NCBI RefSeq assembly: GCF_000186865.1
Contig: NW_008705562.1
Location: forward strand, 1,925,056 to 1,989,055
Reading direction: 5' to 3'
Length of the DNA: 64,000 bases
From: Aureococcus anophagefferens
Taxonomy: Eukaryota > Sar > Pelagophyceae > Pelagomonadales > Pelagomonadaceae
The notes under the pieces are model-generated. The model was not told the origin of the DNA, did not search any database, and saw only the letters and a list, made by a program, of their open reading frames with translations. Position numbers and translations under genes: made by a program. Shown in pieces: positions 19,501 through 41,727 of the stretch. Each line of letters starts with the position of its first letter. Positions within the stretch are counted from its first letter, which is position 1.

Positions 19501-22500
19501 CGGCTGGCACCACTACTGCCTGAGCTACGAAGGGACGAGCCAGGTCTGGTCCCTCTCCTACGACGGGGCCCTCGCCGCGGAGGGCGCGGCCGCGCTGGAC
19601 ACGGCGTCGTCGACGCTCGCCGTCGGGCGGTGGGGGTCCCTCTACTTCGACGGGTCCATCGACGAGGTCTACGTCTACGCGAGCGCGCTGACCTCCGTGG
19701 CCGTCGCGACGCTCTACGCCGCGGTGACCGCGCCGCCGTCGCCGGAGCCCACGGCCGCGCCGACGCTCACGCTCCGGCCCACGCACCCGTTCGCCGGCGC
19801 TGGGAAACTCATCGCGCACTACGCCTTCGACGACGGGCTGGCGGCCGACGACGTCGCGGGCCTCGACGGGGTCGTGAGCGGCGGGGCGTCGACGCACGGC
19901 CGCGACGGCGCGCCCGACGGCGCGCGCCTCTTCGACGGCGTCGACGACTACGTCGAGCTCCCGGCCGCGGCGACCGCGGACGTCCTCGGGGCCGCGCCGC
20001 GGACCCTGTGCCTCTGGGCCCGCACGGACACCTTCGTCGAGAAGGCCGGGCTCTTCAACTACGGCGCGAATGCGGACCGCAACGAGTTCGGCCTCCGCGC
20101 GCGGACGGAGGAAGGGGTGATCCGCGTCCAGTTCTTCGGGGGCGACTACGACTACGACGAGACCCTCGGCGCCGACTTTTCCCTCGGCGCCTGGCACCAC
20201 TACTGCCTCACCTACGACGGCACCTCCTGGGTCTTCTACTTCGACGGCGCGGGGCGCCACTCGGAGAGCGTCGCCGCGGACACGACGGACGATCCGCTCT
20301 GGGTCGGGCGCCAGGGGAACAAGTACTTTTCCGGCGCCATCGACGAGTTCTACATCTACGGGACCGCGCTCGACGCCGACGAGGTCGCCGTGCTCTTTCT
20401 GGACGGCATGCCGTCGCCCGCGCCGTCCACGGGCGCGCCGTCCTCCGCGCCGTCGCTCCGGCCGACGCTCGCGCCCTGCGACGACAACGATGCCTGCCAG
20501 GACCTCCAATTCTGCAACAGCGACGCCAGCGCGAGCCACGCGGGCTGGTGCGAGGACTGCTACTACCCCGGGGACTTTTTTGCGGGCACGGACGTCTGCG
20601 GCCGCTTCATGGCCGCGTGCTGCGCCGGCGACGCCTCTTCCTCCCCCTGCGACTTCTGCAACGACGAGGGCACGCCGGCGCCCACGCCTCTGCCGTCTTC
20701 GAGTCCGAGCGCGAGGCCGTCGGGGCTGCCCTCCGCGTCGCCAAGCTCAAGGCCGAGCTCCAGGCCGTCGTCTTTGCCAAGCGCGAGTCCTACGCTGCTT
20801 CCGATCCCGGAACCGTCCCAGGCGCCTACGGCGTCGCCCACATTGCCTCCGCTTCCGTCGCCGACCAATACTCCGATTCCGGCACCGACCACCGCGCGAC
20901 CCACGTACGCTCCGAGCGACGCGCCGAGCTCGGAACCGAGCAGCGCTCCTAGCTCGGAGCCATCGCCGTTGCCCTCAAATACACCCTCCTCGCGTCCCAC
21001 GCCGGCGCCGACGCCGTCGCCGACGCCGGAACCCACTCCTGCGCCGACCGTGCATCCCCTCCCGGCTCCCACTCCGAATCCGTCCGACAGACCGACGCCG
21101 AAACCGTCGGGTAGACCCTCGCCTTCACCCTCGACATCGCTGCCATCGCCCAATCCGTCTGATAGACCAACGACGGCCGCTCCGAGCGCGACTCCGAGTG
21201 GTACGCCCACCGCGGCTCCGACTGCTGCGCCCACGACCCGTCCGTCCGCCGCGCCGTCGTCCAACCCATCGGCCGCGCCCTCCGCGACGCCCAGCGCGAC
21301 CCCCAGCACCGCGCCGACGTCCATCCCATCGTTCGCGCCCACGCCTACTCCGTCTCTCTCCTGCCCCGACGGCAGCTTCCTCTTCAAGCTGATCTTCGAG
21401 TCGTCGGACCTCTTCACGGCGTACGTGACCTGGGCGTTCTACAGCCAGGACGACGACGTCGAGAACGCGCGCCTCTTCGCCCAGTGCGACGGCGACGGGG
21501 ACGGCCGCTGCGACGAAACCTACCCGGACGTGTTCTACACGTGCATGCTGCCGCGGTGCTTCACGTACGCCCTCGAGAGCTCGAACGCGAACGCGACGAC
21601 CGGCCTCTCGCAGCGCCTCGTCCACGCCGCGGGCGAGCAAAAGGTCGTCCTGGGAAAGAGCGGGAAGAAGTACTACGACTTTTGCATCAGCCAGGACGGC
21701 GCCGTGTACCAGGCGCCGTCCAGCGTCCTGTGGCCGTGACGATTTTCGAGAGATTTTGGGTGGGAAAGCAATGAGAAATCGTCACCGTCATGCTTGGTAG
21801 GCGCCGTCGCCCGCGCCGACCGGGTCGCTTTCGCCCACGTCGGCGCCGTCGCTCGAGCCGTCGACCTCGCTGCCTTCGTTGGAACCGACGCGGGCGCCGA
21901 CGCCCGCTCCGACGACGCCACCGCAGAGCGCCCCGTCAAGCCAACCCACGTCGCTGCCCTCCCTCTCTATCGCCCTCGACAGCTGCCCCGTCGACCTTTC
22001 AGCCGTCCCGCGCGCCGACCGTCTCCCCGACGTCCGCGCCGACGACGCCGCATCCGACGGCGGAGCGCGGCGCGCCGACGCGCGCGCCGTCCACGGCGGC
22101 GCCGTCGACGGCGGCGCCCTCAAAAAAGCCGTCCGCGTCGCCCACGACCCGCTCGCCGACGACGCGATCGCCGACGACCGCCGCGCCGACGACCGTCGCG
22201 CCGTCGACGGCGATGCCCTCGTCGAAGCCGACCGTCGCGCCGTCCACGGCCGCGCCCTCGACGGCGGCGCCCTCAAAGAAGCCGTCCGCGTCGCCCACGA
22301 CCCGATCGCCGACGACCCGATCGCCGACGACCGACGCGCCGACGACCTTTTCCCCGACGACCTTTTCCCCGACGACCTTTTCCCCGTCGACCCTCGCGCC
22401 GTCGACGTCGTCGCCGTCGCCGGCGCCGTCCGCGGCGAGCTACAGCGTGTCCGGCCGCCTGACCTTCGGCGGCATGACCGTGGACGAGGCCGAGGCGCAC

Positions 22501-25500: not shown

Positions 25501-28500
25501 CGACGTCTCGTGGGCCTGCGGGGGCAACCTGACGTTGACGGCGCCGTGCCTTCCGGGCGCCGTCGTCGCCTTTTTCTGCCCCTTCGACGAGGCCGCGTGC
25601 GTCGCGTGGAACGGCACGGCCTGGGACGCCGCGTGCGACGCGGCCGTCGACGGCGCCGCGGTGACGTGCGACTGCCCGGCGGCGCCGGCGCCGGCGGACT
25701 ACGCGGTCACCGCGCGGTCCGTGCTCGGCACCTACGCCTACGCCTTCGCCGCGGCGCCCGGCGCCGCCATCGCGGCGACGCCCCTCCTCTACTGGACGCT
25801 CGCGGCGCTCGTGGGCGCGTGCGCGGCCGTCGCGGCCGTCGGCGTCGTCCTCGACGCGCGCGACGAGGCGCGGCTCGACGACGACGCCTGGCGCCGCGCC
25901 TACGAGCGGTCCCGCGAGCGGGGCGCGACGCTCGGTGAGATCGTCGAGGCGAGCATGCCGTCCTTCGTCGGGCGCCTCCGCGGCGGCGCGCTCCGCTGGG
26001 CGCTCGAGCTCGTGCGGTCGCACCACTCCTGGTGCCGCATCCTGACGCACTTCGCGCGCGACGCGCCGCGGCACCGAAGGTGCGTCACGTTGCTCTTCAC
26101 GGTGCTCATGATCATGTTCGGCCAGGCCGTCGCGTACTGGTTCGCGTACCCCGTGGGCTTCTGCGAGCGGGCCGAGCACCGCGACGACTGCCTCGCGAAG
26201 CGCACGTTCTTCGCGGAGATGGTCGGCGCCCTCGCGGGCGACGGCGACCCGGACCGCGACGCGTGCGTCTGGAGCGACGCGCCGCGCCGCGGCGAGGACC
26301 GGTGCGCGCTGCGCGCGCCGGAGCCCCACGACGTCGGCTTCAAGCGCCTCTTCCTCATCTTCCTCGGCGTCGTGCTGGCGATCCCCTTCACGGAGCTCTT
26401 CGACTCGACCTTCGTGCGCTACGTCTGCGCGCCCGTGGCCTGGACGCGCGCGGCCCGCGAGGCCCCGGAGAAGCGGCGCGCGAGCCGGACCGCGAGCGTC
26501 CACGGCGGCGAGCTCAAGGGGAACCTCGTCGTCACGCCGGGCAAGACGGCGGCGAAGCACCACCACGCGGTCTTCGGCGAGTTCGAGACGTCGGGCCACG
26601 ACGAGGACGCGCGGCGGCCCGCGCACCGGCGGCGGCGCGCGCGCGACCGCCACGGCCGCGCGGACGCGAGCCTCGTCGCGCACGACGTCGGCCGGCGGCT
26701 CTGGCGCAACCTGCACATCGACGGCCCGTCGCTCGCCGTCGCCGAGGTGCCGCCGGCGACCTACTACGCGCTCCGCGCCGTCGTGCCCGTCATGGCGGCC
26801 GTGCGGTTCCAGCACCGCGAGCTCCTCGACGCGCTGGGCGACGGCGGCGCGGCCGCGGGCGCCGTAGCGCGGCTGCTCGACGACCTCGAGCGGCGCTGGG
26901 CCGCGGCGCCGCTGCGGAAACCGCGCGCCGAGCGGCCCCGGGGCTGGGAGCGGGCCTTCGCGGAGCGGACGCTCCGGCGCCTCGTCCACGGGCAAAGGGT
27001 CGCGGCGCACTACGCGGAGATCGCGCGGCGCGTCGACGACCGCCGCAAGGCCGCGGCGCTCGTCGTGAATCTGATGCGCCTCGCGCGGCTGAGCGACACG
27101 GAGGCGAAGATTCTGGAGCAGCAGCTCGCGGCGGACGGCGCCTTCGACGCGCCGGGGCCCGCGCCGGCGCGCCTGCCCGCGGTGTCGCCGCGCGCGAAGG
27201 TGGCGGCGTCGGTTGCGTGCCTCGCGGCCTTCGCGGGGCCCGTCTACTTCCTGCTCGTCTTCGCCGCGGCCGAGGGCCGCAAGATGACGCGCGCGTGGTA
27301 CTTCTCCACGCTCTTCTTCATCTTCATCGCCGTCGGCATCGTCGAGCCCTTCACGGTCTTCATCCTCAAGTTCTGCCTGCCGGCGTCGGCCTACGCGAAG
27401 CTGCGGTGGATGCGCGACCCGACGCTCCTCGACGACCCGGCGCGCGTGCGCCTCTTCGTCGAGCCCGCGGCGCTGCTGCCCGACGACGTGGCGTCGTGCT
27501 TCGGCGCGCTCGGCGCGGACGCGCCCGCGCGGCTGGCCGCGCGCGACGCGCTCGCGCCGCGGGCCGAGAGCCTGGCGGAGGAGCCGGCGAAGAAGTCCCT
27601 CGCGGCGGCGGTCGGCGCGCCCGTGGCCCGCGGCGCCGTCGAGCGCGCGCTGCTCGACGAGGCCGCGGCGGGCTTCGCGCGCGTCGACGCGGCCGCGGAC
27701 GCGGACCGCGACGGCGAGCGGCGGGCCCACGAGGCCTTCGCGGCGCTCGGCGGCGCCTGGGAGGTCGCGGCCCTCGAGCGGCAGGCGAAGCGCGCGAAGT
27801 TCGCCGCGCCGTTGTACCACGGCGCGGCCATGGCGGCCGCCGCGGCCGTGCTCGCGGTGCACCCGGCGCTCCGGAGCTGCGTCATCAAGCAGGGCATGAT
27901 CCTCGTGAGCCTGGGCATCTGCGGGTCGCGCGTCGCGTTCCTGCGCGCGTTCCTCGACCGCGCGGACCGCGCGGCGCCGGGCCTCGGGCCCGTCGCGCTG
28001 GCCTGGGCCGCGATGGTCGCCGCGTGCCTCGCGGCCGTCGCGGTCTTCAAGGTGCGGTGGTGGCTCACGTCCCTGCGGCGCTCCGCCGTCGCGGCGGAGA
28101 GAGCGCTCGAGCACGCGGCGTCGGAGGTCGCCGAGGTCGCGACGTCCGCGACGCGGCGCGCGTCGCAGCTCCTGCGGCGGAGGACGGACGACGACGGCGG
28201 CGACGCGGCGGACGTGCCCGCGCTCTCCATCGACTTCGGCGACGACGTCGCCGAGAGCGACGGCCGCGACGCGCCGCCGCGCCAGCTGTCGCGCGCGCTC
28301 TCGCGCGACGTCGCCGCGCGGGCCGCGCGCCTGGACCACTCCGCGGCGGCCGCGCGCCGCGTCGCCGCGCTCGTCGACGCGCACCACTTCGGCTGGGCGG
28401 GCGTCGCGGGCACGGCGCTCTCGTCCGCGCTCCTCTACGCGGACGTCGCCGACGGCGGGCCCGACGTCGAGGTCGCCGCGGGCGCCGCGAGGCGCGGCTC

Positions 28501-31401: not shown

Positions 31402-34400
31402 TTACCCGGGGTCGTGGTGGACGCGGACGCGGTGGATCGCGCCGCGCGCGGTCGCCGCGGCGAACGTGAGCCGGTCCGCGGGCGACGGCGCGACGCAGGT
31501 GACGTCGCCGCCGGCGTCGTAGCGCGAGAGCACGCGGCCGCTGGACGTCTCGAGGTACTGGACGTCGGAGCCGCGCGCGACGAGCACGCGGCCGGCGTCG
31601 CGGACGAACGCCGCCGCGGCGGCGCGCCCGTCCCCCCGGAAGGACCGCTCCACGGCGCCGGTGTCGCGGCCCCAGACCTTGACCGTGCCGTCGGCGCTCG
31701 CGGACAGGATCTTCAGCCCGTCACGAGAGAAGGAGCAGCACGTCAGCGGCAGCGCGTGGCCGTCGATCGTCTTCTCGTAGTCGGAAGGATCGAGGCGCCG
31801 CGCGTCGTAGAGCACGAGCAGCGCCCCGGACTCCGCGTCCCAGAGCCGCAGCGTGCGGTCGCGGGACCCGGAGAGCACGCGCATCCCGTGGCGCGGGAAC
31901 GCGAGGCACGTCACGTCGTCCGAGTGGCCGTCGTCGTCGAGCGGCGTCCCCCGGATCAGCACCGCCGCCTCGCCCGACGTCGACCGCCAGAGCCGCACGG
32001 TCTTGTCGGCGCCGCCCGTCGCGACGAGGCGCCCGTCGCCGGAGAACGCGACGGCCCAGAGCGGCCGGGAGTGGCCCTCGAGGACCCGGAGCCGCTCCCC
32101 GTCGTCCGCGGACCAGACCGCCGCGGTCCGGTCGCGGCTCGCCGTCGCCACCCGCGACCCGTCCAAACTCACGGCGCAACAGGTCACGCGGTCGACGTGG
32201 CCCCGGAGCGTCGCGACGAGGTGGCCGTCCGCGGACCGCCAGACGCGCGCGGTCCGGTCGTCCGACGCCGTCGCCAGCAGCCGGCCGTCGCCGCTGTAGC
32301 CCAGGGCCCGCACGGCGCGCGCGTGGCCCCGGGCCGACTCGAGCCCCGCGTCGGCGTCGGCCTCGCCCGATCGCAGCGCGTCGTGGAGCGACGCCGCGGC
32401 CGCGTGCTCCGCGAGCGCCGCGACGACCTTCCGGCGGCGGCCGTCCAGCTTCCGCGCGACGCGGCCCGTCGACCTAGGGAGAGCCATCGTGTCGCGTCGT
32501 GGGGGAAAAAAAAAACGGGACCCCGGAGGCGCGTGCGGGTCCCAGACGCGCGCGTCGCGGTCGCGGCCGCCCGAGACGACGTTCTCCGCGTGGTCGCTGA
32601 AGGACACGCAGCGCACGGCCGCGCCGCCGTGGCCGCGCCAGCGTTTCAGGAACACGGGCTTCGTCGCGTCCCAGACGCGCGCGCAGCCGTCGTGGCAGGC
32701 CGTCGCGACGCGCGCGCCGTCGGCGGACACGTCGACGGACGCGACGCGGTCGGCGTGGCCCGTGAACGTGAGGAGGAGCTCGCCCGAGGCCGCGTCCCAG
32801 AGGCGGCCCGTGCCGTCGTGGCTCGCCGTCGCGAGCCGCGCGTCGTCGCCGGAGAAGGCCGCGGCGACGACGTTCTCCGCGTGGCCGACGAGCGTCGTCC
32901 GGCGCCGGTCGAGCGCGCGGCCGGCGTCGAGGGCCGCGTCCCAGAGGACCGGCGACCGGCCCGCGGCCGTGACGATCGTCGCGCCGTCGTGGGAGAAGAC
33001 AATCGCGTCGACGGCGCGGTCGTGCTCGAGGACGAAGCGGATCGCGCCCTTGGTCGCGTCGAGGCACCGCGCCTTTCCGTCGGCGCAGGCGACGCAGAGC
33101 GCGGACCCGTCGGGCGAGAACGCCAACCTTCGGAAGGAGTAGACGTGGTTGTCGAGGCTGCGGATCGCCTCGACGACGGGCGTCGCGGCCCTGGGGCCGA
33201 GCTTGCGGTACGCGGCGCGCACGGGGAAGAGGAGCACGTTGCCCTCGGCGCCGCACGTCGCCGCGTGGGCCCCGGCCGCGTCCAGGGCGACGCAGGACAC
33301 GGCGTCCTGGTGGCCCCGGAACTGGACGAGGGCCCGGCCGTCGGCCGCGTCCCAGAGGCGCGCCGTGCGGTCCGCGGACGCCGTCGCGAGGCGCGCGCCG
33401 GGGCGGTCGTACGTGACCCACGCGACGCGGCCCTTGTGGCCCCGGAGCGCGAACGCGAGGCGCCCCGTCGACACGTCGTGGACCTCGGCGTCCGTCGGCC
33501 CGCCGGCGGTGGCGACGCGGCGCCGGTCCCGAGAGAAGGCGACGCAGGTGAGCGCGGCGCCCGCGCGGACCGCGCGCTCGAGTCGCGTCCGCGCGGCGCT
33601 CCAGAGCCGGACGTCGCCGTCGGCGGACCCCGTGACGACGTAGGCCGACCGGCTGAAGTCGCAGGACGTCACGGCGCCACCGTGGCCGCAGAGCGCCTGC
33701 TGGAGGACGCCGTTCGTCGCGTCGAAGATGAGCGCGCGGCCGTCGGCGCCGCCCGTCGCGACGCGCGCCGCGTCCCGCGAGAACGCGACCGCGAGCACCG
33801 CGGCCGCGTGGTAGATGCAGAAGAGGTAGCGCCCGCTCGCCGCGTCCCAAAGGCGCGCCGTCTCGTCGAGGGACGCCGTCGCGACGCGCAGGTCGTCGCG
33901 AGAGAGCGCGACGTCGCTCACCGAGGCCGCGTGGCCCTCGAACGTCGCGACGAGCGCGCCCCGGCGCGCGGCCCAGAGCCGCGCGGAGCGGTCCTCGCTG
34001 CAGGAGACGACGTAGGTGTCGTCGCGGGAGAAAGAGACGGACGTGACGGGCAGCCGCGTCGCCCGGCCCGCGGCGTCGCGCGCGTGGATGTCGAGGACGT
34101 GCTCGACGGCGCCCGTGTCGACGTAGTAGACCGTGACGACGTCCGTGCCGACGGCGACGCGCCGGAAGTCGCGGTTCTCGGCGCCGAGGGCCACGGCCGT
34201 CACGGGCGCGCCCCCGGCCGCGCCGAAGCACCGGCCGGCCGCGCCCGTCGCCGCGTCCCAGAGCCGCGCGACGCCGTCGGCGCCGCCCGTCGCGACGTGG
34301 CCGCCGTCCGCGCCGTAGCAGCAGCAGAGCACGGCCCCGCCGTGGGCCAGCGCCGGGCATGGTACGTCGAAGCGCTGGCCCGGCGGCACGTCCGGCGGGA

Positions 34401-37400
34401 CCGCGACCGTCGCCGCGACGCCGTCCGGGCGGACGCACGCGACGGCGTCGCCGGCCTCGGCGCCCGGCGGCGCGCGCGCCGAGGCGACGCAGGCGCCGTA
34501 GGCCTCGAGGGCGAACATGGTCTCGGACGTCAGGGGGTGGTGCACGAGCGCGCGGCCGTCGGCGCCGCCGGACGCGACGCGCGGCGCGTCCTCGGAGAAC
34601 GCGCAAAAGTAGACGTTGCCCGCGTGGCCCCGCAGGTCGCGCTCGAGGGCCCCCGTCGCCGCGCACCAGACCTTGACCGTCTCGTCGCGCGACGACGTCG
34701 CCACGTGGGCCGCGTTGTGGTGGCTGAAGGCGCAGCACAGCAGGCCGCTGCCGTGGCCGCGGAGGACGAAGCGGACCTCCGCGGTCGCGACGTCCCAGAT
34801 CTTCGCGACGCCGTCGTCGCCGCCGGACGCGCATTTGCCGTCGACGCTCAGGCAGCAGCAGGTCACGGCGCCGCCGTGGGCCCGGAGCGCCGCCGAGACG
34901 CTCGCGCCGTCCGCGGCGGACCAGAAGCGGAGCGCGCGGTCGCGGCCGCCCGTCGCGACCGTCGCGCCGTCGACGCTCGACGACAGCGCGCAGGCGGCGC
35001 CCCGGTGCGCGGCGACGCGGAGGCGCGGGGCGCCGTCGGCCGCGCCCCAGAGCGCGACGGCCCCGTCGTCGCCGCCGGAGAGGAGCAGCGCCCCGGTCCG
35101 GTCGAACGCGACGGCGCGGACCGCTCTCTCGTGGGCCTCGGCGCTCCAGGCCAGCGCGCCCGTCGCCCCCGCGAAGACGCGCACGCGCTTGTCGACGCAG
35201 CCCGTCGCCAGGCGCGCGGCCGGGCCGACGGGCGGCAGCGCGACGCAGGTGACGGCCCCGCCGTGCGCGCGCGCGACGGAGACGAGCTTGCCGTCGACGG
35301 CGCCGAAGAGCCGCGCGCAGCCGTCGCTGCCCGCCGTCGCGACCCAGGCGCCGTCGTGGGAATATGCCACGCAGGTCACGTCCTTGGCGTGGCCTCCGAG
35401 GCGCGTCTCGACCTCCGCGACGACGGGCCGGAGGTCCTTGCGCGCGTCGCGGTGCGCGGACTTGGCGAGCGCGCGGCGCTCCGGGTCGCGGCTGAAGGCG
35501 ACGCAGGTGAGCTCTCGCGCGTGGCCCCGCAGGAGCGCGTAGAGCGTGCCGTGGGCGCCGTCCCAGACGCCGCAGGTGCCGTCGAAGCTCGCCGTCGCGA
35601 CGAGCTCGCCGTCGGACGAGAACGCGACGCCGGAGACGTCCCGGGCGTGGCCGTGGAGGGCGAGCTTGAATCTGCCGTCCGAGGCGTCGTGGATGCGCGC
35701 GGACCTGTCCGCCGACGCCGTCGCGAGCCACTTGTTGTCCGGCGTGAACGCGACCGCGGTCACAGCGCCGTCGTGGCCGCCGTGCGCGCGGATCGCGGCG
35801 CCGCCGCCGGCGTCCCAGAGCACGGCCGTGCGGTCCTCGGAGCCCGTGAGGATGGCGCGGCCGTCGCGGGCGAAGGCGACGCAGGTGCCCGCGCGGCGGT
35901 GGCCCGAGAGCTTGCGCGCGAGCTTTCCCGTCGCCGCGTCCCAGACGCGGACGCCGTTGTCCCGGCTCACGGTCACGACGAGGGACCCGTCTCTTGAGAA
36001 GTCGCAACCCGTGACCTCCTTGGCGTGGCCCCGGAGCACGGCGAGGGGCTTCCGCGGCGCCGCGTGGCCCCCGAGGCGGAGGAGCGGCGCGGGCGCCGCC
36101 GCGGCGGCGCCGGCCGGCGGCGCGTCGACGAGCGTGTCCCAGACCCGCGCGGTCCTGTCGTCCGACGCCGTGGCGACCTTGGTGCCCGCGCGGTTGAAGC
36201 GGCAGCAGGTCACGGCGGCGCCGTGGCCCCGGAGCACGCCGTCGCACCTGGGCAGCAAAAGGGTGCGAAATTCCCAACTTCAAAGGCTCCTATCTCGGTC
36301 GTTTTCCGCTCGTTTCGGCTGATTTTTGGACGAGCGATCATCTCTCGGAGCGCTCTCGAAGCGCGGGTGCTGTTTTCGAAACGCGCGCGCGCGGCACACT
36401 CACGTTGAAGCGACGTTGAATCACCCTGTTGCTGCCCTGCGTCGCACGCGCCCGCGGCGACGTCCCAGAGGCGGCACGTCGCGTCGGCCGACGCGGTCGC
36501 GAGGCGCCGCCCGGAGCCGTCGAAGGCGACGCTCAGCACGTAGTTCGTGTGGCCCTTGAGCTTGTGGACGCACTTGAAGGAGCCCGCGTCGTAGAGCCGC
36601 GCGGTGTTGTCGCGCGAGCCCGTCGCGACGCGCGCGCCGCCGTGCGCCGCGGCGGCCGCGGCCTCGACGAGGCCCCGGCCCTCGACTAAAATCTTCCTCG
36701 CCGTGCCCGTCCAGGCGTCCCAGATGCGCACGCTCCCGTCCTGGCCGCCCGTCGCCACGCGGCGCGCGTCGCCGTCGAACGCGACGCCGCGGACCGCGCC
36801 CGCGTGGCCGAGGAGCGTCGTCCGCAGGGCGCCCGTCGCCGCGTCCCAGACGCGCGCGCCGCCGTCGGCGCCGCCCGTCGCGACGGCGCCGCCGTCCTTG
36901 GAGAAGGCGCAGCAGAGCACGCTATTGGATCGATCCTCGAGCGCGAGCCGCAGGTCGCCCGTCGCCGCGTCGTGGAGCCTAACGGGGTGACGCGACGTCG
37001 CTTCATTCCGCGCGCGCGCGTTCCAAAGAAATCGCCCACGCGTCGAGAGCGCTCCGAGGGATGATCGCTCGTCCAAGAATCGGCCGAAACGAGTGGAAAC
37101 CGGCCGAGCTCGGAGCCGTTGAAGTTGGGCGCGTCGCGCCCTTTCGTTCCCGCGCCGCGCGGCGCCGGCCCAGGTCCGCGGGCTTCGCCCGGGCCCGCTT
37201 GTCGACGCCCCGGAGCGTGCCCGACGCCGCGTGCCACTTGAGCGCCTTGCCGTCGGCCGTGGACCGCGTGTAGACCTCGCCGCCGTCGCGCGAGAAGCGG
37301 AGGCAGTCGACGGGCCGACCGTGGCCCGCGTGGCCCCGGCCGCCCTGGCCGTCGAGCACGGCCTCGAGGGCGCCCGTCGCCGCCGTCCAGAGCTTCGCCG

Positions 37401-40400
37401 CGCCGTCGCCGCCGCCGGAGAGCACGCGGCGGCCGTCGGGCGAGAAGGCGACCGCGTAGCACGCGCGGCCGCCGTGCGCCTGTGCCGGAAACAACCGGTG
37501 GAACGCCCCGTCCAGCAAAAACTTCAAACCTCTCGAGCTCGGTCACATCGAAGTCGTTTTGGCTGATTTTTGGACGGATCGTGTTCTCTCGGCGAGTTCC
37601 TTTGAGAGAGTGAAAAAACGATTTCAAAACTGTGCGAACACATGCATATTGAAGTCGTGTTGAATATGTTTGTTTCCCGCCCGGCCGCGCGCCTGCTCGA
37701 CGGCCGCGAGGCACGGGTCCGCGTCCTCGGGCTTGTCGACGCGCTCGAGGACGCAGTTCGCCTCCGCCGCCGGCGGCTTGGCGTCGCGGAGCCGCGCGAA
37801 GGCGCGGAAGACGTGGGAGCCGTCGGGCGCGTTCGCCGCGAGCGCGTAGACGCGCGCGGGCTCGCCGCGGATCTCGTCCGCGTGCCGCAGGAGCCAGCGC
37901 TTGACCTCGCGCAGCGCGGCCGAGTCCCAGCCGTGGTCCGCGAGGGCCGCCAGCTCGCGGACGAGGGCGGGCACGCGGCCGTGCTTCGCGGACGCGCAGA
38001 GGAAGCGCAGGCTGCCCAGGACGCGCTCGCCGCGCGCGACGTCGTCCGGCGCGGCGCGCCGCGCGCGGCGCGCGTGCGCCGCGAAGTGGCGGAGCGCGTA
38101 GCGCACGAGGTCGTCCTCGGCCTCGATGGCGTCGCGGCCGCCCCGGAGGACCTCGCCCTCGTCCAACAGCGGGCCGAGCAGCGTCGCCGCGTAGTCCGCG
38201 AGCCTCGCGTCCGCGGCGGCCTGGGCAGGAAAAGAGTGATTCAACGTCGCTTCAACATGAGTGTTCCGCGCGCGCGCGTTCTCAAAAAAAGCATCCACGC
38301 TTCGAGACCGTTCCAAGAGATGATCGATCGTCCAAAGATCAGCCGAAACGAGTGGAAAACGGCCGAGAGAGGAGCCTTTGAAGTTGGGAATTTCGCTCTC
38401 TTTTCCTGCCCTGGCGGCGGCGACCGCGTCCGCGTCGAGCGTGAAGTCGTGGCGGCCCTCGGGCCAGGTCAAAAAGTCGACGACGGCGGCGTGGCGCGCG
38501 ACGAAGCGGCCCCGGGCCACGGGGAAGAGGCGCGCGAGGGCGCGCGTCGCGCGCTGGAGGTCCCGGGGCTTGAGCCGCAGCGCGCCCGCGGCCTGTGTGG
38601 AAATCAACCAGTGAGCTGGGACGTCGGGGCCAAACTTCAGAAATCTCTAGCTCGGTCAAATCGAAGTCGATTCGGCTGGTTTTTGAACGAATCGATCGCT
38701 CTCGTCGAGGCCTCGAAGCAGAGCCGAAGCGCTTGTGTCGAAATTTTCGACTACGCGCACATTGAAGTCGGGTTGAAGATTTGATTTCCACACCGCCCGC
38801 GGCGAGCTCGACGGGCAGCGGCTCGCGCGCGGCGACGACGGCGGCGACGACGGGCCGCGCGCGCGCCCAGGACCCCGGCTCCGCGAAGGCCTCCCGGAAG
38901 CAGGCGAGGAGCATGGCGTCCAAGCCCTCGGGCAGCTCGAGGAGCGCCGCGTGGGTCAGCGCGCCGCGCGTCGCCGCGTCTGTCCCGTCGTCGCGCCGCG
39001 CGTCGTCGGCCGCGGCCGCGGCGTCGCTCGCGGCGTCGAGCCGCTCCGACAGGAGGCCCGCCCAGGCCATGGACCTACCACGCACGTCGGTCGCGACGGT
39101 TCATCGTGTTCCCACCCGGAATCTCTCGAAACTCGTCGCGGCCGCGGGACGCTGCCATGGACCCCATGGACAGGGACACGAGCGTGTCGACGGCGACGTC
39201 CTCCTCGGAGTTGGACAGTCGTCCGACGACGCGGCGCTCGGCCGCGTGCGCGCGCGCGCGGATCGGGAACCGCGCGTCCGCGCCTGTCGTCCCCGGCGTC
39301 CGTCGGAGCGCCGTCGAGGGGTTCGGACCGGAGCCCTTCGAGCACGCGACGAGCGCGGACGGCTCGTCCAAAGATCGGCCCCATCGACGTCGATGTTCGG
39401 AAGTCCGGCCCCGACGTCCCGGCTCGCCGGCGCGATGCCCGCGCGGGCCCGCGCCGCGCCGCGCGAGGTCCCGGAGCTCGGCGAAGATGGCCGCGCCCTC
39501 GTCGAGGCGCCAGGCCTCGAGGGCGAGCACGACCTCGGCGTTGTGGTGGCGCCCGTCGCCCAGGGGCACGCGCACGACGCAGCGGACGTCGCGGTTCCCG
39601 CACGGCGTCGGCCGCCGCGCGCGGTTCTCGAGCGACGCGAGCCGCAGGCCCGCGGCCTGCGTGGAAATCAAATCTTCAACCCGACTTCAATGTGCGCGTA
39701 TGCGACCGTTTCGACGCAAGCTCTTCGGCTCTGCTTCGAGAACTCGACGAGAGCAATCGATCCGTCCAAAAATCAGCCGAATCGACTTCGATTTGGCCGA
39801 GATAGAGAGGTTTGAAGTTTTGCTGGACGCGTCCATTCCACTGGTTGATTTGCACACAGCCCGCGGCCCGCTCCAGCGCCGGCGCGTCCATGAGCTCGTC
39901 GAGCGCGGCCCGGAGGCCCGCGCAGGTGCCGTAGACGAGCGTGAGCCGCGCGAGGTCCGTGAGCCGCGACGCGTCGCCGTCGTAGTCGTACGTCGCCTTG
40001 GCCTCCGCGGCGCCGCGGTCCTTGACCTGCGCGGGCGATTCGACGTCGCTTCACCGCGCGGGTGCCGCGCGCGCGCGTTCCTAGAAAAGGCGTCCGCGCG
40101 TCGAGAACGCGGCGGGAGACGATCGCTCGTCCGAACATGGGCCGAAACGCGCGGAGCGCGGCCGAGGGGGACGTCGGGCGCGTCGCGCGCGTTCGCCGCG
40201 CGGTCGTCGACGCCCGGGCTCAGCGCGCGGGCGACGCCCGGGAGCCGCGGGCGCGCGGCCCGCCGAAAAGGCCCGTCGATCTCCCAGTCCGCGGCGGCGA
40301 GGCGCTCGAGGAACGCCTGGGCCTCGCGCGCGTCCTCGTAGAGCGCCTCGAGGCTCGCCCGGCCCCGCGCCTGGGCAGACAAGGGTGCGAAATTCGCAAC

Positions 40401-41727
40401 TTCAAAGGCTCCTTTCTCGGCCGTTTTCCGCTCGTTTCGGCTGATTTTTGGACGAGCGATCATCTCTCGGAACGGTCTCGAAGCGTGGATGCTTTTTCCG
40501 GAACGCGCGCGCGCGGAACACTCACGTTGAAGCGACGTTGAATCACCCTTGTCCTGCCCTGCCCCGCGCGGGCGGCGGCGGCGCGAAGACGTCGTCGACG
40601 GCGAGGAGCCGCGCGTAGCCCTCCGGGTCCTCGGCCGCCGTCGACGCCGCCGCGGCGCCCTGGAGCTCGCGGCCGCGCTTCAGCAGCCCGTCGAAGCCGC
40701 GCTCGCGGCCCCGCGCCGCGAGGTCCTCGCGCGTCGCGCGGAGCATGCCCGCGACGCGCTGCCCGCACGCGCGCTCGACGTCGGCCTCGAGGTCGCCGCT
40801 GCGCACGCGCGCGTCGCATTTGGCCGGGACGACCTCGCGGAAACAGCGCCGCAGGTCGTTGAGGTTCCGCCACTCGTCGTAGGCGAGGTCCGCGGTGGGG
40901 TAGCTCCGGAGGACGCCGTCGACCTGGGCCGCGAACGCCCGGCTTCACGGGCTCCCTAGCTCGGCCGTTTTCCACTCGTTTCGGCTGTTGTTTGGACGAG
41001 CGATCATCGCTCGGAGCGCTCTCGAAGCATGCATGTTCTATTTGGAACGCGCGCGCGTAGAACAGTCACGTGGTAGCGACATCGAATCACCCGTTCGCGG
41101 CCCCGCCGTCGACGTCGGGCGACCGGCGGCTCGTGACGACGACGCGGAGCCACCAGGGGAAGCGCCGCGCGAGGTCGTGGGCGAACTGGAGCAGGGCCGC
41201 GCGCCCGAAGCGGCCGCCGAGCTCGTCGATGCCGTCCAGGAGGAGGAAGTAGGGCTCCGCGCGCGTCGGCGCGCGCGTCCGCGCGACGGGCTCGAGGAGC
41301 AGCGCGGCGACCGCGGCCTCGGGCCGCCCGCGGCGGAGCGCCGCGGCGACGGCGGCGTCGTCGGGCGCGAAGCCCGCGACGCGCTCCCGGAGCATCGCCG
41401 CCATGGAGCCCGCGACGGCCGCGACGTCGCTGAGCGCCGCGGCGTCGCGGCGGCAGAGGTGCCACGCGCCGCAGCGCGGGCCGAGCTCGCGCAGCAGCGC
41501 GGCGGCGACGACGCCTGCGAGGGGCGCCTCGGCGGCGCGACGGCGCGGTCGCCACGGCGCCGCGGCGCGCTCTTGCCCATGCCCGCGTCGCCCGTGACGC
41601 CGAAGAGCCGCGCGCCCCGCGGGTCGTCGAGCCAGGCCCGCACGAGGTCGATGACCCAGGTCCGCGTCCCGGCGACCTGCTTCTCGCGCAGCTCCTTGAG
41701 GAGCACCGAGAAGTTCTGGGCCTCCAT
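31402..41727 (-). CDS. NACHT (STAND) P-loop ATPase with RelA/SpoT-like segment and about 39 WD40 repeats
   Basis: Thirteen exons, all phases checked and summing to 2743 codons including the stop: 41727-41556, 41514-41114, 40923-40570, 40370-40212, 40026-39868, 39656-39455, 39283-39163, 39074-38804, 38592-38422, 38220-37693, 37479-37166, 36978-36448, 36247-31402. Visible features: Walker A GVTGDAGMGKS, Walker B YFLLLDGIDEL and RVVVTSRRSP (NACHT); a segment YDYDGDASRLTDLARLTLVY...NRDVRCVVRVPL resembling RelA/SpoT-fold domains; a winged-helix-like region (REPLPVELAAG...LARLFPV...VVDFLTW) typical of NACHT-WD proteins; a helical spacer; then some 39 WD40 repeats with ends such as VWDAATG. Such proteins sense ligands through WD40 propellers and oligomerise by ATP binding. 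Eleven of twelve introns are introners; the last exon of 4.85 kb has none. An A10 tract at 32507 lies in frame. The RelA/SpoT resemblance is tentative. Confidence 0.85.
36248..36447 (-). mobile_element. introner (family B), 200 nt, GT-AG, duplication GTGCGACG
   Basis: A perfect octamer flanks CAGGGCAGCAACAGGGTG...CACCCTTTTGCTGCCCAG, an 18-base near-perfect inverted repeat. The GT donor is the first two bases of the duplicated target, the AG acceptor the last two of the element. Splicing joins DVAAGA to CDGVLRGHG exactly. Confidence 0.92.
36979..37165 (-). mobile_element. introner (family B, inverted, diverged), 187 nt, GC-AG
   Basis: Start GCGCCGCG and post-acceptor GCTCCACG agree at 6 of 8. 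The interior carries CCCAACTTCAACGGCTCC at its left, as in inverted B copies. Splicing joins AKPADLGR to LHDAATGDLRLALED in frame. Confidence 0.75.
37480..37692 (-). mobile_element. introner (family C), 213 nt, GC-AG
   Basis: Start GCGCGCGG and post-acceptor GCGCACGG agree at 7 of 8. Ends CGGGAAACAAAC and GGTTGTTTCCGGCACAG are inverted repeats of a C subtype. Splicing joins CLAAVEQ to AHGGRACYAVAFSPDG, the first WD40 repeat. Confidence 0.85.
38221..38421 (-). mobile_element. introner (family B, inverted), 201 nt, GC-AG, duplication GCCGCCGC
   Basis: A perfect octamer duplication. Ends CAGGGCAGGAAAAGAG and CTCTTTTCCTGCCCAG are complementary over almost their whole length. Splicing joins LDADAV to AADARLADYAATLL. 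The interior is nearly the reverse complement of the copy at 40371-40569. Confidence 0.9.
38593..38803 (-). mobile_element. introner (family C), 211 nt, GC-AG, duplication GCCGCGGG
   Basis: A perfect octamer flanks CGGTGTGGAAATCAA...TTGATTTCCACACAG-type ends (right end seen as GGTTGATTTCCACACAG). Splicing restores PVELAAGALRLKPRD. Same target octamer as the copy at 39657-39867 but opposite orientation, so two separate insertions. Confidence 0.9.
39075..39162 (-). mobile_element. introner (family A), 88 nt, GT-AG, duplication GTCCATGG
   Basis: A perfect octamer lies at the start and after ...GTGCGTGGTAG. Begins CAGCGTCCCGCGGCC, core TTTCGAGAGATTCCGGGTGG, as in the OvoA intron. Splicing joins SLSMGSM to AWAGLLSERL in frame. 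Confidence 0.88.
39284..39454 (-). mobile_element. introner (family C related, diverged), 171 nt, GC-AG
   Basis: Start GCGCGGGC and post-acceptor GCGCGGAC agree at 7 of 8. The interior segment GAGCCGGGACGTCGGGGCC matches GAGCTGGGACGTCGGGGCC of the copy at 38593-38803 in reverse orientation. Splicing joins LRDLARRG to ADARFPIRARAHAAERR in frame. Confidence 0.7.
39657..39867 (-). mobile_element. introner (family C), 211 nt, GC-AG, duplication GCCGCGGG
   Basis: A perfect octamer duplication flanks CTGTGTGCAAATCAACC...GGATTTCCACGCAG-type ends (left CTGTGTGCAAATCAA, right TTGATTTCCACGCAG). Splicing joins LERAAG and LRLASLEN, using one copy of the duplicated Ala-Ala-Gly codons. It lies in the opposite orientation to the copy at 38593-38803, which hit the same octamer. 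Confidence 0.88.
40027..40211 (-). mobile_element. introner (family B, inverted, diverged), 185 nt, GT-AG
   Basis: Start GTCGACGA and post-acceptor GTCAAGGA match at 6 of 8 positions. The interior runs in reverse relative to the forward B copies (GGTGAAGCGACGTCG near the right end). Splicing joins ARALSPG to VKDRGAAEAKATYDYDGD in frame. It is more decayed and GC-richer than the others. Confidence 0.75.
40371..40569 (-). mobile_element. introner (family B), 199 nt, GC-AG, duplication GCGCGGGG
   Basis: A perfect 8-base duplication flanks CAGGGCAGGACAAGGGTG...CACCCTTGTCTGCCCAG, an almost perfect inverted repeat. Splicing joins APPPP to ARGRASLEALYED. The interior is very close to the copies at 36248-36447 and 38221-38421. 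Forward orientation. Confidence 0.9.
40924..41113 (-). mobile_element. introner (family B), 190 nt, GT-AG, duplication GTCGACGG
   Basis: The octamer GTCGACGG occurs at the intron start and directly after the acceptor (8 of 8). Ends CGGGGCCGCGAACGGGTG and CTGGGCCGCGAACGCCCG (reverse complement of the right end) are inverted repeats. Splicing restores SPD-VDGVLRSY. Forward orientation relative to the gene. Confidence 0.88.
41515..41555 (-). other. short GT-AG intron of the NACHT-WD40 gene, 41 nt
   Basis: The Walker A exon and the next NACHT exon are in different frames. An intron GTGGCGACC...CCTCGCAG joins KSAPRR to VVAAALLRELG in frame. There is no target duplication, so this looks like an ordinary small intron. 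The exact donor is the weakest junction in the model. Confidence 0.5.

Follow-up and report, generated by a model that had tools for sequence, protein, structure and literature searches.

Eleven very probable introner elements in one WD40 gene of Aureococcus anophagefferens, and an asymmetry at their ends

In Aureococcus anophagefferens, introners reportedly carry one splice site and co-opt the other from the target duplication, as Huff, Zilberman and Roy are said to have described in 2016. Introners are a documented genome-scale source of new introns (PMC9860276), and those of Aureococcus, about 200 bp long, act as introns and have direct repeats as well as terminal inverted repeats (TIRs) (PMC9481584, PMC7789003); descriptions or citations in these three papers agree with the original prediction that introners are already established in Aureococcus. 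Here we analyse a 64,000-nt stretch of this genome (the window; contig NW_008705562.1, positions 1,925,056 to 1,989,055), in which one minus-strand gene holds eleven introns that are, with high confidence, introner elements, that is, short non-autonomous DNA transposons with an 8-bp target duplication. They differ in nothing of kind from the introner elements of the species. Their two orientations resemble the opposite-orientation insertions admitted in the methods of Gozashti et al. 2022 (PMC9860276), whereas Fig. 2F of that paper has an Aureococcus sp. example that brings both of its splice sites along and lengthens the transcript by 12 bp; the insertions here leave no extra bases. The introner elements of Amoebophrya, as described in PMC7789003, likewise have inverted repeats able to fold into a hairpin that joins the exon boundaries, but their direct repeats are 3-5 nt and their splice sites non-canonical, in contrast to 8 bp and GT/GC..AG here. 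The gene is a dense and readable case, with eleven insertions in 4.9 kb that range from nearly intact to decayed and with intronless sites in its paralogues.

The readable part of the host gene extends from 41536 to a stop at 31402 on the minus strand and encodes a STAND-type NTPase with a long array of WD40 repeats C-terminal to it, in a window with a G+C content of 64-81% (2-kb bins). All eleven introns lie within its 5' half (41113-36248). Once they are spliced out, a single open frame of 2692 codons is read from 41536, in agreement with the prediction that removing each element plus one octamer restores the frame at all eleven sites. The WD40 part of the predicted domain architecture was recovered with the Pfam WD40 profile (4.9e-52). 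The NACHT label was not, as the NTPase part matches NPHP3_N (25.4 bits for a cut-off of 24.8; 1.8e-05) and the host gene has no NACHT match; the NTPase of a paralogue on C9 also matches NACHT, below the cut-off.

Every intron is bounded by GY..AG and starts with an octamer that is found again after the acceptor (11/11). Base-by-base comparison upheld the count given for these octamers in the original prediction, with seven perfect pairs and the remaining four matching at 6-7 of 8 positions. Together the pairs agree at 82 of 88 positions, which is beyond anything seen in 20,000 permuted pairings (mean 47.5, maximum 72) and rules out chance repeats as their source; among the 110 mismatched pairings, chance gives only two perfect ones. 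In the mechanism we propose, a non-autonomous DNA transposon would insert and thereby generate the 8-bp target duplication. The GT or GC of the 5' splice site would then come from the upstream octamer copy and the AG from the element end, so that removal of octamer and element would give back the original coding sequence. Intron phase is 0 in seven cases, 1 in one and 2 in three.

Pairwise matches place ten of the eleven elements in one superfamily with a common central core, present in both orientations. Family A in the A+ orientation comprises intron 1 (41113-40924; octamer GTCGACGG, 8/8; phase 0), a diverged 182-bp element with 83% identity over 150 bp to the 191-bp element E40569 of intron 2 (40569-40371; GCGCGGGG, 8/8; GC donor; phase 0), and intron 11 (36447-36248; GTGCGACG, 8/8; phase 2), whose 192-bp element has matches of at least 97% at 40 of 41 scored genome sites, its own locus included. 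The A- orientation is represented by intron 3 (40211-40027; GTCGACGA, 6/8; phase 0), with a diverged 177-bp element opposite in orientation to E40569; by intron 8 (38421-38221; GCCGCCGC, 8/8; GC donor; phase 0), with the 193-bp element E38421 that is 91.5% identical to E40569 on the opposite strand; and by intron 10 (37165-36979; GCGCCGCG, 6/8; GC donor; phase 2), with a decayed 179-bp element at 85% over 125 bp to E38421. Family B comprises the 203-bp element E39867 of intron 4 (39867-39657; GCCGCGGG, 8/8; GC donor; phase 0) and a decayed B-like 163-bp element in intron 5 (39454-39284; GCGCGGGC, 7/8; GC donor; phase 1) with 76% over 59 bp to E39867. Two B elements have the opposite orientation, one of 203 bp in intron 7 (38803-38593; again GCCGCGGG, 8/8; GC donor; phase 0), 85.5% identical to E39867 on the opposite strand, and a diverged one of 205 bp in intron 9 (37692-37480; GCGCGCGG, 7/8; GC donor; phase 0), 76% identical to E39867. 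Intron 6 (39162-39075; GTCCATGG, 8/8; phase 2) stands apart with an 80-bp family-C element. Thus, the three predicted element types A, B and C are all present, with the correction that A and B are related to each other. The prediction that the elements end in inverted repeats holds for the eight introns with clear TIRs, and fails for those at 39454 and 37165, where the ends are decayed, and for the 80-bp element at 39162, where no TIRs are seen.

For intron 6, donor 39162 is preferred over 39171 on the basis of an ungapped paralogue alignment and a same-ended 80-bp copy at 21721-21800 of the window. Alternative boundaries for introns 5, 6 and 10 were rejected. A longest-ORF (open reading frame) criterion weighs against two of the adopted boundaries, choosing no intron at 39454 and donor 37139 for intron 10; the boundaries at 39454 and 37165 were adopted because exon frames, octamers and element alignment favour both. 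A blind scan (octamer at least 6/8, GY..AG, TIR at least 10/16) returned eleven rows, namely eight of the eleven introns together with 41566-41318, 40219-40003 and 37857-37693. The three extra rows, one of which (40219-40003) overlaps intron 3, are taken as chance.

Searching the whole genome (49.05 Mb, 86 contigs) with element queries gave first-look candidates numbering 3219, 1788 and 1767 per query, of which 40 were scored for each, and intact-end patterns matched at 1132 sites for family A and 416 for family B. We aligned 118 copies (67 A, 51 B). The 8-bp duplication matches at 6/8 or better in 113 of them, and the other five were dropped. This genome search, which had been suggested as a check, favours the introner interpretation through high copy number and copies with 8-bp duplications of their own. 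Among the 67 A copies, 28 were picked from the listing of the one-way pattern (AG at one end only), 14 from that of the symmetric pattern and seven as top matches (L002-L008); the ends of copies picked by end pattern or top score are given by construction, and their octamers alone are informative. In the 58 A copies with one AG end, the donor-side octamer starts with GC in 31, GT in 26 and TT in one, that is GY in 57/58 for a flank background of 0.195; the boundary of the TT copy (L101) seems to have been set one base away from its true place. For family B, 38 of whose 51 aligned copies are top-scoring matches of one query, 49 of 50 copies have, in one orientation or both, a donor that matches an AG end. 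This splice-consistency is the test for family B, since B orientation is set by the octamer and the GY share of oriented B copies tests nothing. Over all oriented copies (n = 101, 12 ambiguous ones excluded) the donor is GC in 59, GT in 41 and TT in one. These counts support the predicted division of labour, in which the donor comes from the duplicated host octamer and the AG from the element end.

The octamers also contain a hint of target choice. RC occupies the far end of the A octamers in 23 of 58 copies compared with a background of 0.223 (P 0.002), which amounts to a weak palindromic target preference. Pure target preference was considered as the source of the donor octamer and rejected. 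With independence assumed, it predicts that 36% of B copies lack a donor at both ends, and only 1 of 50 does, so that selection or a stricter target rule also acts.

Intronless counterparts of the insertion sites were sought among paralogues, in place of the other strains or sister species that had been suggested for this comparison. Four further loci of this genome align with a 697-residue stretch of the spliced protein, at 34-39% identity; three of them, on C9 (L113), C14 (L112) and C4 (L114), formed the sample. In the C9 paralogue no stop interrupts the frame across the sites of 41113, 40569, 40211 and 39867 and, in a second stretch, across those of 39454, 39162, 38803 and 38421. Between its two open stretches it carries a 203-bp family-B introner of its own, with the octamer GCTACCGC on both sides (duplication 8/8), at a point where the host gene has no intron. 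No stop is met in the C14 paralogue for query residues 74-539, across six junctions, its stops lying at 73, 540, 549 and 552, and the C4 paralogue has no stops across four junctions. At junction 40211, the residues GVK are continuous in all three paralogues and PGVK in two. At the alignable junctions these paralogues are intronless, which favours the introner interpretation; as read from paralogues rather than strains, this indicates introns absent from relatives and not a dated insertion.

Taken together, the duplication, the element ends, the copy number, the intronless paralogue sites and the frame argue at the level of sequence for eleven introner insertions. Features by which introners are recognised are found here: many similar putative introns at unrelated sites in one genome, a fixed 8-bp duplication, TIRs in families A and B, and predicted restoration of the ancestral sequence, seen in the frame at 11/11 sites and in the paralogue alignment at eight junctions. 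Ordinary old spliceosomal introns, alike by chance or through gene duplication, would also have GY..AG borders in every case, as any intron does, but they leave an octamer duplication far above permutation unaccounted for, as well as the same elements at many other sites, 113 of 118 with a duplication of 6/8 or better, and the absence of the introns from the fetched paralogues at alignable junctions; we consider this origin extremely improbable. Scarcely more probable is reverse splicing of RNA copies, the route proposed for fungal introner-like elements, instead of DNA transposition. It would sit well with the splice-consistency of almost all fetched copies, yet it predicts a single orientation and no such duplication, whereas the elements occur in both orientations to the gene, with 8-bp duplications and TIRs. 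Insertion of DNA elements, presumably driven by a transposase, is thus strongly preferred, and four points weigh against it. Splicing in vivo at the eleven junctions is a prediction from the DNA. The paralogue alignments reach 8 of the 11 junctions, with 37692, 37165 and 36447 outside them. Near 41540-41566 of the window, the NTPase domain is split between two frames, one for the Walker A piece and another for the remainder, and NPHP3_N profile positions 1-36 and 50-164 map to these two pieces. This unexplained change may reflect a small unrecognised intron, an assembly error or damage, and with it the host gene copy may be a damaged one or contain an additional intron. Finally, searches for hAT and P-like domains found no autonomous partner with matching ends.

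Those searches gave no match to the hAT dimerisation domain PF05699 in the genome (control genomes 0/14) and one P-like transposase domain, PF21787, above the cut-off (E 1.4e-9; control genomes 0/14). The latter, at L116 3873-4801 (C25:178372-179300), has stops inside. Around it lies a single match to CNGGGCAG (L116 7040) without a partner end, in a region where 3362 of 9001 bases are N. Sequence resembling the introner core occurs about 0.4 kb downstream of the domain, which marks the locus as a target and not as a proven source. P elements duplicate 8 bp on insertion, at targets that are palindromic and rich in G+C, and would fit.

The two related families differ in the symmetry of their ends. 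Nearly all intact copies of family A are one-way, with AG at one end only; the family has two classes, close relatives of each other, whose internal sequence is spliced in opposite orientations. Most of family B, by contrast, is two-way, with AG at both ends through TIR symmetry. The difference lies at TIR position 2, where the donor-side base could pair with the A of the acceptor. In introns 1-11 this base is G, A, C, T, C, A, G, A, C, G and A, respectively, so that it pairs with the acceptor A in one of the eleven, intron 4, the sole one with T. TIR positions 3-8 match at 44 of 48 in the eight introns with clear TIRs. The 1132 exact family-A matches genome-wide are to the one-way pattern CAGGGCAG..CTGCCCAG (reversed-pattern control, 2). 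The symmetric pattern CTGGGCAG..CTGCCCAG matches 14 times (control 5); half of these are explained by a host octamer ending in CTGGG and seven are real, L089 among them with a duplication of 5/8. The form without AG, CAGGGCAG..CTGCCCTG, has no exact match genome-wide (control 2). Intact A copies have A as the donor-side base in both direction classes. These classes have a mean distance of 0.089 between them and of 0.076 and 0.077 within, and the nearest neighbour of an A copy has the same direction in 53 of 56 cases (200 shuffles: mean 28, maximum 41). Some A copies, for instance C1:3092517, C2:736410 and C1:2003308, are possible recombinants between A+ and A- end segments.

The same split was seen in copies not picked for their ends. 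Twenty 10-kb regions at regular positions on four contigs (L009-L028; 200 kb) contain 12 A copies, of which 11 have AG at exactly one end, none is symmetric and one has misplaced ends, and eight B copies, of which five are symmetric, two broken at position 2 and one misplaced. The 416 exact B matches genome-wide are symmetric; 82 more are broken at position 2 of one end and nine at position 6 of either end (controls 0), position 6 alone serving as the genome-wide control for such breaks (Fisher P 8e-15, related copies being treated as independent). By their sequence, at least two of the 82 (C12:1243616, C27:39448) fall outside family B; intron 7 of the window is also among the 82. Thirteen of the 82 start with CTGTGTGGATTCC, and some broken copies therefore look amplified, hence mobile. 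Among 38 oriented B copies, the donor-side base is not T in seven and the acceptor-side base departs in none, which puts the broken ends at the octamer-defined donor side; the other donor-side positions together show 10 departures in 342. A special role of position 2 is called into question by TIR pairs 4 and 8 of family B, which fail in 6 of 38 copies each, at both ends, compared with 7 of 38 for pair 2. Folding predictions were made on isolated RNA of real copies. In family A, the predicted pairing of the acceptor A is 0.14 where the A/A mismatch is present (51 copies) and 0.97 where the ends are symmetric (four copies); in family B it is 0.95 for 31 symmetric copies and 0.10 for five with a donor-side C. 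The stem at positions 3-8 is predicted to form at 0.60-0.98 in these four groups. Two exceptions depart from this pattern: three A copies with donor-side C lack a TIR stem and pair at 0.67, and a lone B copy whose donor-side base is A pairs at 0.77.

Three accounts of the asymmetry can be set against these data. If the transposase does not read position 2, the donor side would drift freely and the acceptor side would be held only by splicing, through its AG. The mixed donor-side bases of the eleven introns, the 82 B breaks at position 2 compared with nine at position 6, the apparent amplification of broken copies starting with CTGTGTGGATTCC and the variation at B positions 4 and 8 all agree with this, and we give it about an even chance; the same donor-side A in both intact A classes counts against it, because drift then needs two coincidences or a shared history. 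Possible, though held more tentatively, is selection for a broken TIR pair at the acceptor A, which would keep the AG out of a TIR hairpin in the pre-mRNA. The modelled pairing fits in both families, falling to 0.14 and 0.10 in broken A and B copies from 0.97 and 0.95 in symmetric ones with the stem at 3-8 kept, but 416 symmetric B matches persist, the exceptions at 0.77 and 0.67 run the other way, and the predictions concern RNA in isolation. More doubtful is an ancestral TIR without AG (CAG..CTG), in which the acceptor arose by a single change at one end, separately in each A class. Such an ancestor would account, by supposition only, for the single AG end of each lineage, the opposite end having kept its ancestral state. 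It is opposed by the lack of any CAG..CTG match genome-wide (control 2) compared with seven real symmetric CTG..CAG copies, a lack tempered by the likely purging of AG-less copies from genes, and by the mostly symmetric state of the related family B. Drift and selection to free the AG both fit the asymmetry, and we lean towards drift as the simpler. One conceivable course of events, offered with reserve, is that two-way elements gave rise to one-way lineages through loss of the TIR base pairing with the acceptor A, recurrently across lineages and directions, which would free the acceptor from the hairpin. If true, the shift from two-way to one-way would be a base-level record of a transposon end turning into a dedicated splice acceptor, and the asymmetry raises the concrete question of whether introns derived from transposons are spliced better when the acceptor AG is unpaired. 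This genome is the source of our descriptions of the one-way/two-way split, the position-2 asymmetry on the donor side and the 80-bp family. No priority is claimed for the end asymmetry, which was not met in the open-licence literature, in a search directed largely at neighbouring questions and with the 2016 paper outside its reach.

The origin of the donors also bears on splice-site usage. GC-AG introns make up 39.6% of Aureococcus introns, an abundance that PMC3033335 calls an enigma. Donors taken from duplicated G+C-rich host sequence, GC in 59 of 101 oriented copies, bear on this high frequency.

The A and B copies in the host gene form a strong cluster. Matches of at least 160 bp number 21 in the 200 kb of regularly placed regions, and the nine A/B copies detected in 4.9 kb correspond to a Poisson P of about 6e-9 (computed with 22 per 200 kb), a value that is descriptive only, the region having been chosen for its density. 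Dense introner clusters are not unique to this gene. About four matches to an A/B query within 1-2.5 kb also occur at each of C40:90212-91102, C7:843904-846377 and C17:568795-570127. Elsewhere in the window, apart from family C and one 30-bp match (27525-27554), no relative of the eleven elements was detected at E 1e-3. A second family-C introner copy lies on the plus strand at 21713-21808, where the octamer GCGCCGTC flanks an 80-bp element (21721-21800) with the same ends as that of intron 6 and its own 8/8 duplication. Further family-C matches fall in regions L016 and L023, where the scan gave no clean duplication. A shorter relative of family C is located near 2466-2534 of the window, with CGG on the donor side and a duplication of 7/8 by eye.
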